Assembly (NCBI GenBank): GCA_028291345.1
Contig: JAQGIF010000106.1
Location: 1 to 41,433 of the forward strand
From: Rhodospirillales bacterium
Lineage (GTDB): Bacteria; Pseudomonadota; Alphaproteobacteria; BOG-932; Roseiterribacteraceae
Length of the DNA: 41,433 nt
Direction of reading: 5' to 3'
A program made the translations under genes and the position numbers. Of this stretch, positions 1,729 to 35,536 are shown piece by piece. The notes under the pieces are model-generated. The model was not told where the DNA came from. It was given only the letters and a program-made list of their open reading frames with translations, and did no database searches. Every line of letters starts with the position of its first letter. Position 1 is the stretch's first letter.

Positions 1729-4700
1729 TTACGATGTCGTGCCCTCTTCATAGACGATCTGAACCCGCCGATTCTGGGGCTCCCTCACGCCGTCGGCTGT
1801 CGGCACCAGAAGGTCACGCTTGCCCTTCGCGATGATCTCGATCTCGGATGACGGAATTCCGTCCTTCTCCAGCTGAGCTGCGACCGATTCCGCACGGCGG
1901 CGGCTGAGACGCATGTTATAGGCGTCCGAACCCACCGTGTCGGTGTGGCCGGTGACTTCCAACTTGGTTACCTTGGCCGGACCGGCGTTATGCGCCGCCT
2001 GGTCGACGATGGCGACGGCCTGAGGCGTCAGGTCGGACTTGTTGAAGTCGAAGAACACCAGATAGCTCTTCGGCGCGGTGGCCGGGGCCGGCGCAACCGG
2101 CGGCGGCGGCGTGTAGGCCGTCGTCTCTTCCGGTGCCGATTCCCAGGGCATCTGAAACTTCACACCGAAATAGATGAAGCGGCCGATGACGTCATAGACG
2201 CCCGGAACGGTGTTGGTTCCGGTCACGCCCGAGGCCAGACCCGCGCCCGTCTGCTGGAACTCCTGTGTCACAAGCGGCGGGTGCTGATCGAACACATTGT
2301 TCACGCCGATATAGGGCGTGATCGAATCCGTCAGATGGTAGTGGACGCTGAAGTCGTTATAGACGAACGGCTGGAATGTCGGACCGCCCGCGCCGCCGTC
2401 ATAGCTCTGCGAGCCTTCGTAACGCAGTTGCCAGGTCACATCGAAGTCGTCGTTGCTGTAGCCGAGATTAAGGTTCCACTTGTGCTTCGGCGCGCCGAAC
2501 AATCCACGCAGGTTGGTGGTCGCACCGTTAATGGCCGTGATCTCGATCTGCTGCAGATAGGTGTAGTTCCAGCCGATCGTGATGCGGCCGTCGCCCCACG
2601 AACTGCCGGTCAGCGCCGCAGCGGCGTCTTCGACGGAGAAGCCATAATTCAGGGCCACGTCGATGCCGCGCTCGTCGAACGAACCGACATTGATCGGTTC
2701 TTGATCGACACCGATAATCAGGCCCGCGTTCGGTCCAGTGGTGTTGCGGCGAACAGCATTACAGAAATTCGGTGCGAGCGTGTCGGCGCATTGATTCGCC
2801 ACTGTCTGGATATCGAGCTTCTGGACGGCGTTGGCGATCTTGTATCGGAAGGCGTCGATGGAGGCCGTAAAGCCCGAAATCCAGCGCGGCTGGAAGGTCA
2901 CGCCGTAGGTCAAGACCTCGGCACGCTCGTTCGTCAAGTTCGGATTGCCTTGGATGTAGCTGAGTTCGGACTGCTGGTTATTGATGCTTTCAACGAATCC
3001 ACCCGGTGCGTTGATCCGGGCGGCCAGACCGGGGATGGCAAGGCAGTGCTGCAGGCGAAGCGAGGGATTTAGAGCACCGGCAATGCCCAGGTTGGCGCAG
3101 GGATCGTTGACCGAAACTGCCGAGTTGCCACGGCCCTGAAAGAGATCGGTCAGGTCGGGAGCCCGGATGGCGACGGAATTTACTGCACGGAACTGAACGT
3201 CCTCCACCGGCGCATAGGTGAAACCGTAGGCGTAGGACTGCTTGCCGCCGACACTTTGGATCGAATAGTCGCTGTAACGGAAGGATCCCGTGAGAGTGAG
3301 GCTCTTCGCACCGGGCAGGTCCTTCAGAACCGGAACTTTCGTTTCGATCCAGTAATCATAGACATTATAGCCGCCGCCCGACGGGGGCTGGGACGTGTCG
3401 AGAGCGAAGCCGGCGCCGCTCAGCGGGTCGCCGCGGTTATAGCCGTCTTCCGTACGGTATTCGAAACCGACCGCTAAGCTGACGTCGCCATAGGGGAGCG
3501 AGAAGACCGGTCCAGTGATATCGAGGTTGAGGTCGTTCTCCTTGTTCTGGTCGGTATAAGACCGCAATATCTTGATATAGTTGATCGCCTGAGCCGACGC
3601 CTGACCGGCGCCGAACAGGTTGATAGGCACGCAACCCGCCGCCAGCGCCGCGGGATCGGCGCAAACGACCGTGCCATTGGGCAGCCTAACCGCGTTCAGT
3701 TCCTGCTGCAGCTTGACGACATTGCCGCTTAATCCGGACTGGAAGTTGTCCATCTCACTGTAGCTATAGGCCGCGTTCCACTTAAAGCTGTCGAACAGCG
3801 TGCCTTTGAAGCCGGTAACGATCGCGAAATTCGTCCGGGTGTCGTCCACGCCACGATTGCCGAGTTCTGCGAGCCGGCGACGCCAATCATTGAAACCGCC
3901 ATTGCCATCACCCTGGTCGGCGATACCCTGCGCGGCAAGCGAGGCAGGAATGAACGGATTGGTGAGTGGCAGTTCGAGGAATTGTCCCGCAAATCCGATC
4001 GGAGTCGACCCGGCGCCGATCGCGATCGGCTCCAGATGGGTGGTGGCCGTCTGCCGCGCGAACCGACCATCGAGGAAGAAGGTGACGTTATCGGTGATGT
4101 CGTAGCTGGTCTTGCCATAGAGCGAGATCAGCTGGGTCGGGATCTGGATCGTCCGTTCCTGCTCGCGATTGAAGCCGAATTGGGTAGCATTGTAAGGGAC
4201 CGACTGACCATTGGGCAGCGTGGTAAAGAGCCCGTTGTCGGTGCCGAAACCGCCATTCAACGTAAAGGAGCTCGGCCCATAGACCGGACCGTTTGGGCCC
4301 ATGCTGGTGTCATTGGCTGCGAAGCCACGGTCTTTGGACAGGACCGCGCTTTGATCCCTGAACTCCAGGCCGAAGACGACATGACCACGATCGTCGGCGA
4401 AGGAGGTACCGGTCAACAGGTCGAACGTTTCGGTCCGGCTGTCGCCATGCTCAGTGGTCAGGCCGAACTGCTCGTTCGCCATGAGCCCTTCATAATGATC
4501 GCGCAGGACGATATTGACCACGCCGGCGACCGCTTCCGAGCCGTAGGTGGCACTGCCGCCGCCCGTCACGATATCGACATGGTCGATCAGATAGGTCGGG
4601 ATCGTGCTGAGATCGACCGCGGCGGGGCCTTGGCCGACGGGAACGCCGCTCACCGTGCGGCGGCCGTCGATCAGCACCAGCGTCCGTTCCTCACCCAGAT

Positions 4701-5055
4701 TGCGCAGATTGATCGTGCTGATGCCCGCGCCGTCATCCGAGAAGTTCGAGGTGGTGTTCGAAAAACCCGTGTTACCGGTGACGCCAACTTGCGGCAGCCT
4801 GGCCAGCGAGTCCGCCAAGTTGGTGATGCCGGTCGCCTGCAGCTGCGCCGTCGACAGCGTCACCACGGGAACAGTGCTTTCCAGGTTGGTGCGGGCGATA
4901 TGGCTGCCCGTAACTACGATTTCTTCCATCACCGGGGCCGCGGGCGTGGCGGCGGGTTGGTCCTGCGCGATCGCCGGAACGCTTAAAAGCGTCAATGTAC
5001 CGATGAGGCCAACGATCGAAGTTTCGCGCCGCAAGCGCGCTGAGTAAGCCGACAT
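1729..5055 (-). CDS. TonB-dependent outer-membrane receptor fused to a C-terminal OmpA peptidoglycan-binding domain
   Basis: 1108 residues. A signal peptide is followed by cleavage near AIA/QD (about residue 30) and a TonB-box-like EEIVVTGSHI. A plug domain of about 150 residues follows, with LVLIDGRRT and GSEAVAGVVNIVL, then a long 22-strand-type barrel. The usual last strand ends at RFIYFGVKFQMPW (about residue 970), where normal receptors stop. Here a proline-rich linker (TPPPPVAPAPATAP, from 982) leads into a complete OmpA-like domain (about 998-1103): YLVFFDFNKSDLT, VTGHTDTVGSD, MRLSRRRAESV and PQNRRVQIVY. The Asp of TDxxG and the Arg of SxRRAxxV, which bind diaminopimelate in OmpA, are both kept. 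Role: TonB/ExbBD-driven uptake of a bulky substrate, with the extra domain tethering the receptor to peptidoglycan. It lies last in the catabolic cluster after a 354-base gap with its own leader, so it may import the cluster's substrate. Receptor call certain; substrate unknown. Confidence 0.93.
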   Translation of the reverse strand: MSAYSARLRRETSIVGLIGTLTLLSVPAIAQDQPAATPAAPVMEEIVVTGSHIARTNLESTVPVVTLSTAQLQATGITNLADSLARLPQVGVTGNTGFSNTTSNFSDDGAGISTINLRNLGEERTLVLIDGRRTVSGVPVGQGPAAVDLSTIPTYLIDHVDIVTGGGSATYGSEAVAGVVNIVLRDHYEGLMANEQFGLTTEHGDSRTETFDLLTGTSFADDRGHVVFGLEFRDQSAVLSKDRGFAANDTSMGPNGPVYGPSSFTLNGGFGTDNGLFTTLPNGQSVPYNATQFGFNREQERTIQIPTQLISLYGKTSYDITDNVTFFLDGRFARQTATTHLEPIAIGAGSTPIGFAGQFLELPLTNPFIPASLAAQGIADQGDGNGGFNDWRRRLAELGNRGVDDTRTNFAIVTGFKGTLFDSFKWNAAYSYSEMDNFQSGLSGNVVKLQQELNAVRLPNGTVVCADPAALAAGCVPINLFGAGQASAQAINYIKILRSYTDQNKENDLNLDITGPVFSLPYGDVSLAVGFEYRTEDGYNRGDPLSGAGFALDTSQPPSGGGYNVYDYWIETKVPVLKDLPGAKSLTLTGSFRYSDYSIQSVGGKQSYAYGFTYAPVEDVQFRAVNSVAIRAPDLTDLFQGRGNSAVSVNDPCANLGIAGALNPSLRLQHCLAIPGLAARINAPGGFVESINNQQSELSYIQGNPNLTNERAEVLTYGVTFQPRWISGFTASIDAFRYKIANAVQKLDIQTVANQCADTLAPNFCNAVRRNTTGPNAGLIIGVDQEPINVGSFDERGIDVALNYGFSVEDAAAALTGSSWGDGRITIGWNYTYLQQIEITAINGATTNLRGLFGAPKHKWNLNLGYSNDDFDVTWQLRYEGSQSYDGGAGGPTFQPFVYNDFSVHYHLTDSITPYIGVNNVFDQHPPLVTQEFQQTGAGLASGVTGTNTVPGVYDVIGRFIYFGVKFQMPWESAPEETTAYTPPPPVAPAPATAPKSYLVFFDFNKSDLTPQAVAIVDQAAHNAGPAKVTKLEVTGHTDTVGSDAYNMRLSRRRAESVAAQLEKDGIPSSEIEIIAKGKRDLLVPTADGVREPQNRRVQIVYEEGTTS

Positions 5056-33289: not shown

Positions 33290-35536
33290 TTGCGATCTTC
33301 AAACAATGTGACGCCCATTGTCGCCGCCTTGCTGGCTATTGGCAGCGCACCCGTCGCCTATGCCCAGCAGCCAAGCGATCAGACGATTTCGTCCGACGAA
33401 ACGATCGTCGTTTTCGGCCACGCCCAGACCCGCGATTCGCAGACGTTGAAGCATCTTGACCTTGTCGAGGCGGCGCCGGGCACCAGCCCGCTGCAAGTAC
33501 TGAACAAGCTTCCCGGGGTGAATTTCCAGTCTGCCGATACGTTTGGGTCCTATGAATGGTCAACCCGCATCACGCTGCGGGGTTTTAATCAAAACCAACT
33601 TGGCTTCACGCTGGACGACATCCCGCTCGGCGATATGAGCTATGCGAACTATAACGGCCTGCATATCAGCCGCGCGATCATTTCGGAGAATATCGCCAGA
33701 ACGGTGCTCTCCGAGGGCACGGGCGCCCTTGAAACCGCCTCATCGAGCAATTTGGGCGGCACCATCCAATTCTATTCCGCCGATCCCAGCGAGGAGTTCG
33801 GCGGCACGCTGGGCCAGGGCTTCGGCTCCGAGTCAGCAGTCCGCACGTATGTGAAACTCGATTCCGGCCGCCTTTCGACCGGCACCAAATTCGATGTCAG
33901 CTATGCCTATCAAAACAGCGATAAGTGGAAGGGCGTCGGCGAGCAGCGCCAGCAGCAGGTCAATGGCAAGCTCGTCCAGGCGCTGGGCGACAATGCGCAG
34001 TTCAGCGTGTTCGTTAATTATTCCGACCGGCAGGAGATCGACTATCAGGATCTCTCAAAGGAATACATCACCAAGCTCGGTTACAACTGGGACAATTACC
34101 TGCCGAATTGGCAGTATGCCCTCGACGCGGCGCGGGGCATTTACCATCTCGGCGAGGACAAGACGTCGGATCCGCTGGATGCGGCCTATTATGCCGGTTC
34201 AGGTCTGAGAACCGATGTCCTGACCGGGGGTACACTGGATGCTTCGCTCAACGACGATATCTCGATCAAACTGACCCCCTACCATCATTCGAACGATGGC
34301 CGGGGTCTATGGTACACGCCCTATACGCCCGGTCCGACCGGCTCGCCGGTTTCCACGCGCACAACCGAATATGAAATCGACCGGACCGGCGTGATTGCCG
34401 GCGTAACCGCGACATATGGGATCAACAAGATCAATGCCGGGGTCTGGTACGAATTCAACAGCTTCAACAATGCGCGCCGTTTCTTCGCGGACAGCCTGTC
34501 CGCCCCGATCTCGCCCTACGAGTTTCCGACCAATCCGTTCTTCACGCAGTGGCAATATCAGTTCGACACCGATACGCTGCAATTCCACCTGCAGGATACG
34601 GTGTCGGTCACTGACGAACTGACCGTCAATCTCGGCTTCAAATCGCTCTCCGTCACAACCACCTCGACGACGCAGGTGGGCCCGGCGATCAACGGTACGA
34701 TCGACGCCACCAACAACTTCCTGCCGCAGTTTGGCGCCACCTATGCGATCAGCAACGATCAGGAGGTTTTCTTCAATTTCGCTCAGAATATGCGCGCCTA
34801 TCAGGGCTCCGCGACGGGAATATCGCCCTTTGCCACCACTCAGGCCGGGTTCAACGCCGCGGTGAAGACGATCAAGCCGGAAACCTCGGACAGTTATGAA
34901 GCCGGCTGGCGTTACCGCAACGACATATTGGAAGCCCAGGCGACCGTCTACCACATCGACTTCTATAACCGGCTGCTGGCCGTCCAGCCCTGCCCCGCCA
35001 TCGTCGGCTGTCCGGTCACGCTGGGCAATGTCGGCGGCGTGGAGACCAACGGCGCGGAGTTCGGCGTGTCGCTCCACCCCATCCAGAACTGGAACCTGCT
35101 GAGTTCGGTGAGCTTCAACGACTCGACCTACAACGACAATTATTCATCGGGCGGCGTGCCGGTTGCGACAAAGGGCAAGGAGGTCGTCGACTCGCCCAAA
35201 TGGATGCTGAAGACCGAACTGTCCTATGACGACGGCAACCTCTACGGCCATATCGGGGTCAATTATTTCGCGCGGCGTTATTACACCTATACGAACGACA
35301 ATTATGCCGGCGCCTATGCCGTGGCGAATTTGGGGATCGGCTATCGCATCGAGCAGCCGTTCGACTATATCCGCGAGTTGGATATCCAGGTGAATGTCAA
35401 CAACCTGTTCGACCGGAAATATATCTCCACGATCGGCTCGAACGGGTTCGTCAACAGCGATCCCAACGGGACCGCGCAGACGCTGCTGACCGCCGCGCCG
35501 CGCGAGGCCTTCGCCAACGTCACCGTGAAGTTCTGA
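33290..35536 (+). CDS. TonB-dependent outer-membrane receptor
   Basis: 748 residues. Starts with TTG at 33290, seven bases after AGGAG; no ATG or GTG gives a full signal peptide. Signal peptide to AYA/QQ (residue 25), then a TonB-box-like ETIVVFG, a plug domain with LDDIPLGDMSYANYNG and SSSNLGGTIQFYS, and a barrel ending in the classical final strand EAFANVTVKF. Length and motifs fit a complete functional receptor. The AT-rich promoter upstream and the broken phosphodiesterase gene downstream suggest an acquired uptake module for a phosphoester. The substrate is an inference. Confidence 0.93.
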   Translation: MRSSNNVTPIVAALLAIGSAPVAYAQQPSDQTISSDETIVVFGHAQTRDSQTLKHLDLVEAAPGTSPLQVLNKLPGVNFQSADTFGSYEWSTRITLRGFNQNQLGFTLDDIPLGDMSYANYNGLHISRAIISENIARTVLSEGTGALETASSSNLGGTIQFYSADPSEEFGGTLGQGFGSESAVRTYVKLDSGRLSTGTKFDVSYAYQNSDKWKGVGEQRQQQVNGKLVQALGDNAQFSVFVNYSDRQEIDYQDLSKEYITKLGYNWDNYLPNWQYALDAARGIYHLGEDKTSDPLDAAYYAGSGLRTDVLTGGTLDASLNDDISIKLTPYHHSNDGRGLWYTPYTPGPTGSPVSTRTTEYEIDRTGVIAGVTATYGINKINAGVWYEFNSFNNARRFFADSLSAPISPYEFPTNPFFTQWQYQFDTDTLQFHLQDTVSVTDELTVNLGFKSLSVTTTSTTQVGPAINGTIDATNNFLPQFGATYAISNDQEVFFNFAQNMRAYQGSATGISPFATTQAGFNAAVKTIKPETSDSYEAGWRYRNDILEAQATVYHIDFYNRLLAVQPCPAIVGCPVTLGNVGGVETNGAEFGVSLHPIQNWNLLSSVSFNDSTYNDNYSSGGVPVATKGKEVVDSPKWMLKTELSYDDGNLYGHIGVNYFARRYYTYTNDNYAGAYAVANLGIGYRIEQPFDYIRELDIQVNVNNLFDRKYISTIGSNGFVNSDPNGTAQTLLTAAPREAFANVTVKF

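Follow-up and report, generated by a model that had tools for sequence, protein, structure and literature searches.

In the Proteobacteria, TonB-dependent uptake and the tethering of the outer membrane to the cell wall are treated as separate jobs. TonB-dependent receptors such as FepA, PfeA, Cir, and BtuB have a signal peptide, a TonB-box-like motif, a plug, and a barrel, and they stop at the last barrel strand. The OmpA porin, as in E. coli, joins an 8-strand barrel through a Pro-rich linker to an OmpA domain that is C-terminal and bears the D and R ligands, and its barrel end is internal. In the Negativicutes/diderm Firmicutes and other Terrabacteria, OmpM combines uptake and wall tethering in one protein, and it is reported to be absent from the Gracilicutes (PMC10628300). 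In OmpM, of which there are several paralogues, an SLH domain at the N-terminus is combined with a porin barrel. In Brucella and Agrobacterium, β-barrels are covalently linked to peptidoglycan by way of an N-terminal Ala-Asp motif and transpeptidases (reviewed in PMC10787603).

The window analyzed here is a contig of 41,433 nucleotides from the draft genome, G000, of an uncultured, soil-type member of the Roseiterribacteraceae. G000 represents another genus of this family than Roseiterribacter, the genus of R. gracilis, which is placed in the GTDB order BOG-932 (PMC11164329). One protein encoded in the window, P0001, has all the parts of a receptor like FepA, but it continues through a linker of 27 residues into an OmpA domain, the tail. 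P0001 shares with the OmpA porin (that of E. coli and L026 of G000) the order of barrel, Pro-rich linker, and C-terminal OmpA domain, the D and R ligands, and the internal barrel end, whereas the 8-strand barrel is absent and a TonB-receptor plug and barrel are found instead. As with OmpM, uptake and a putative tether are joined in several paralogues, here by other domains: the OmpA domain is C-terminal, the barrels are alphaproteobacterial TonB receptors, and no SLH domain of P0001 is matched in Pfam. The tailed receptors would also resemble the Brucella and Agrobacterium proteins in being alphaproteobacterial barrels fixed to the wall, though by a folded, non-covalent domain.

Judged by sequence, the tail most likely ties nutrient receptors to peptidoglycan, making these receptors a proteobacterial counterpart of OmpM. 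The findings suggest that this lineage has merged nutrient uptake with outer-membrane fastening, in dozens of proteins. No description of the architecture, i.e., a TonB receptor with an OmpA tail, was found in the open-access literature.

Architecture of the Tailed Receptor

The open reading frame extends from 1729 to 5055, stop codon counted in, and encodes 1108 aa from an ATG start. These are the coordinates given by the earlier note; the strand, which it did not give, is minus, and all features of the gene described here lie on that strand. A signal peptide was assigned by eye to residues 1–30 (4966–5055), as a hydrophobic stretch followed by AIAQ. The TonB-box-like sequence EEIVVTGS, residues 44–51 (4903–4926), is kept in orthologues. 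The plug domain includes residues 58–179 (4519–4884; Pfam PF07715, 2.1e-18). The β-barrel extends from about residue 190 to 970 (2146–4488), as placed by Pfam, AlphaFold2, and Foldseek; the PF00593 match itself covers residues 390–921 (9.4e-27), and the best fold matches of the barrel are PfeA, Cir, FepA, and BtuB. P0001 thus has the plug and barrel of a TonB-dependent receptor. It departs from the usual, though not strictly defining, trait that a receptor's C-terminus is the last strand of the barrel. That strand, FIYFGVKFQMP, is at residues 960–970 (2146–2178). The barrel itself is complete, and the OmpA domain is an addition.

The barrel is followed by a Pro/Ala/Glu linker, residues 971–997 (2065–2145), and by the OmpA-like peptidoglycan-binding domain, residues 998–1102 (1750–2064), found by Pfam, phmmer, and AlphaFold2. 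The PF00691 match covers residues 1001–1096 and the whole model, positions 1–98 of 98 (4e-19), and the tail is nearest by sequence to the structures of E. coli-type OmpA and Pal. The tail therefore has the full-length match, the fold, and the two diaminopimelate ligands of an OmpA-like domain. These are D1039 (1939–1941) and R1054 (1894–1896), the equivalents of D271 and R286 of E. coli OmpA. In the AlphaFold2 model (mean pLDDT 78.4, pTM 0.75), the final barrel strand at 960–970 is followed by disordered residues 973–994 (pLDDT < 50) and an OmpA-type fold at 999–1102. Pfam and the structure prediction thus bear out what the earlier note had read from the letters: a receptor with an OmpA domain, a Pro-rich linker, both diaminopimelate-binding residues, and a barrel end internal to the protein. 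Tailed receptors offer a way to test barrel-assembly signals that are internal to a TonB receptor.

The same in-frame junction is found in the P0001 orthologue (L044, G001:C161; 78% identity) and in a paralogue on another contig (L015, G000:C97; 67% identity), and more than 20 additional fusions have no stop codon across the barrel–tail junction. A sequencing error that hides a stop codon or frameshift between residues 970 and 998, an explanation that had been kept in view, is hereby excluded. G001, G002, and G004, all of them drafts, contain fusions as well, and one (L065) is in the genome of an isolate, R. gracilis TMPK1 (G003; BOPV01000001.1; 3 contigs).

Number and Distribution of Tailed Proteins

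P0001 is one of many proteins that have a tail in common, a tail that evolves in concert, which is a bigger point than a single fusion. G000 has 64 plug matches. Its OmpA matches number 39, and most of these lie in frames of 900–1100 aa. About 30 of the 64 plug-bearing receptors, about half, are receptor–OmpA fusions, and about half are without the tail. In 25 receptors, a single complete or nearly complete frame holds the plug, barrel, and tail; another three fusions are cut by contig ends inside the tail, and several fragments add to these. The congeners G001 and G002 have many tailed receptors each, and R. gracilis, of the sister genus, has 1 tailed receptor among 47 plugs.

The tail of G000 is not confined to receptors. 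It is also found on the ordinary OmpA porin L026, at the C-terminus of an autotransporter β-domain protein (L037:1735–4449, plus strand, G000:C327; homologue L181 in G001), and on a PagL-like barrel of the lipid A deacylase family (L036:2904–3785, minus strand, G000:C54). In a BBP2-type porin (L031:1–1338, minus strand, G000:C220; homologue L071 in G001), the same OmpA domain is N-terminal, a mirror order in which the anchor comes first, as in OmpM. A decayed tailed-receptor end, with barrel end, linker, and OmpA domain interrupted by stops and a frameshift, lies in a tandem array of tailed receptors in G001, directly behind an intact one (L167:3700–4204, plus strand, G001:C234).

The earlier note had called the architecture unusual. 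Outside the family, a search of about 1,000 other Pseudomonadota genomes yielded no fusion that spans barrel and tail. Among the matches listed, there were none in 380 other alphaproteobacterial genomes, in a mixed Pseudomonadota sample, or in the class of G516, from which 369 genomes were searched; these searches, whose scope was the Pseudomonadota and whose E-values are those of single genomes, scored the best six candidates per genome at most, and rare or very divergent fusions could escape them. The tail was on none of 80 P0001-like receptor loci in other taxa. Autotransporter- or adhesin-like proteins of G246, G326, and G516 likewise carry an OmpA domain on an outer-membrane protein other than OmpA, but these are single long proteins, whereas here the tail is common to a receptor family. 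Two of them, from another alphaproteobacterial family, are a 2066 aa frame in which the OmpA domain follows an autotransporter-like barrel (L217, G246:C2) and a 1510 aa frame with an OmpA domain (G326:C1:390226).

Evolution of the Tail

Barrels and tails have different histories. Between G000 and G001, barrels match up as orthologues: on the barrel tree, 16 changes of genome label are needed, no better than shuffled labels. The tails cluster by genome: a tree built from nucleotides needs 6 label changes and one built from amino acids 5, against a shuffled mean of 14.3, and none of 500 shuffles was as low (the trees were computed with a short search). Six barrel segments with an equal number of columns need 16–17 changes, so the shortness of the tail is not the cause of its clustering. 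Paralogous tails within one genome are thus more alike than orthologous tails, which is the mark of concerted evolution, and the family offers a clear case of it at the level of a domain among bacterial surface proteins.

P0001 exemplifies this. Its barrel is 76% and its tail 86% identical to those of the orthologue, but a paralogue in the same genome has a tail that matches the P0001 tail at 98% identity, the barrels of the two having no significant match. The tract in common with a paralogue tail (L018, G000:C160), confined to linker and tail, lies at 1729–2133 (minus strand; 410 bp, 88.5% DNA identity). L025 and L027 share a 379 bp tract of linker and tail (93.7% DNA identity) on barrels that are 32% identical, and L011 and L019 share one of 378 bp (95.2%), again of linker and tail only. 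On average, DNA similarity is at chance level from the stop codon and fades within the linker. A transfer cassette reaching past the stop codon was considered and rejected, since average similarity there is at chance.

The presence of the tail is scattered across the receptor tree: on a barrel tree of 82 receptors, 16 changes are needed, 14 of them forced by well-supported branches. The near-absence of the tail in R. gracilis favors gains on deep branches. Some tailless members within the tailed clade may be losses. No tail remnants, a sign of loss, were found behind tailless receptors. Three tailless receptors inside the tailed clade (L235, L227, and L079) end in short GP.. extensions, which may mark losses. 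All 59 of 59 tails have the D and R ligands and the sequence PQNRRV. Orthologous tails have a dN of about 0.04–0.12 and a dS of 0.43–1.9 (dN/dS about 0.05–0.17), and the low dN relative to dS indicates purifying selection on the tail. Taken together, clustering by genome, tail-only tracts, and scattered presence argue that the tail is a module homogenized by gene conversion.

Two other accounts of these patterns need to be weighed. G000 is a draft of 401 contigs, several of which (C37, C65, C86, C298, and C317) stop within a tail, and it is a short-read MAG in which near-identical tails might give some false joins of barrel to tail; the related drafts are MAGs as well. That the fusions as such are artefacts, two genes misjoined or repeat tails swapped among contigs, is nonetheless very improbable, given the fusions in the other drafts and in the isolate and the junction common to P0001 and its orthologue. 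Misjoins could scramble the pairing of tails and barrels, but swaps within a genome are unable to produce tail clusters specific to genomes, so the clustering is not made by assembly. A single old fusion followed by gene duplication, with selection on the OmpA domain alone keeping the tails alike, would agree with the general conservation of that domain and with the strong divergence of synonymous sites among many tails (dS 0.4–1.9). We regard it as unlikely, because tails group by genome and barrels by orthology, because tail presence requires at least 14 forced changes over the receptor tree, and because recent tail-only tracts, 88–96% identical in DNA, sit on barrels that are 32–44% identical or unalignable. 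We read the tail instead as a module that barrels gained or lost many times, its copies in any one genome then being kept alike by gene conversion that is limited to the linker and the tail.

Proposed Role

The C-terminus of a TonB receptor is in the periplasm, and the tail can therefore reach the wall through the linker. We propose that P0001 serves as an outer-membrane importer dependent on TonB and that, on the periplasmic side, its flexible linker of about 27 residues leads to an OmpA-type domain that would grip peptidoglycan non-covalently through D1039 and R1054. The tail is common to a set that spans the genus, namely about 30 receptors together with the OmpA porin, a BBP2 porin, an autotransporter, and a PagL-like barrel, and it would tether the outer membrane and keep importers at the wall near TonB. 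As a whole, an importer with a modular, gene-converted tail that holds peptidoglycan is probably the right explanation. We also lean, somewhat less firmly, towards the broader view that this genus has made much of its import machinery into wall tethers with one interchangeable tail, in convergence with OmpM.

Other roles of the tail were weighed as well. The genome also encodes a Pal-like lipoprotein besides its ordinary OmpA porin, so receptor tethers are not obviously needed, and about half of the receptors do without a tail. The tail may thus serve retention, or positioning near TonB, instead of bulk tethering. OmpA-type domains are able to bind proteins, as Pal binds TolB, and a tail that makes some other periplasmic contact, or that guards against vesicle loss or lateral drift and is not a mechanical tether, is a less likely but serious alternative, as tethering could be left to the lipoprotein and the porin. 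The invariance of both diaminopimelate-binding residues speaks against it, and the presence of the tail on unrelated barrels argues for a general contact with the wall. Cleavage of the tail after assembly, which would release a free periplasmic OmpA domain, is invited by a linker that is Pro/Ala-rich and disordered in the model. OmpA keeps a comparable linker uncut, however, and no conserved cleavage motif was noticed by eye in the linkers, so that we give cleavage very little credence. Under the preferred reading, in which the tail holds peptidoglycan, importers fixed to the wall would provide a natural experiment on TonB coupling, receptor turnover, and loss to vesicles.

Neighborhood of the Receptor Gene

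No conserved gene neighborhood that might hint at the substrate lies beside the P0001 orthologue in G001. In the window, the segment 5410–16694 beside the receptor gene encodes three acyl-CoA ligases, a thiolase-like protein, a putative cyclase, and two luciferase-like monooxygenases, a cluster that looks catabolic. Farther along, at 33290–35536 (plus strand), the window encodes a tailless TonB receptor whose closest relative in the tree, L040, is tailed.
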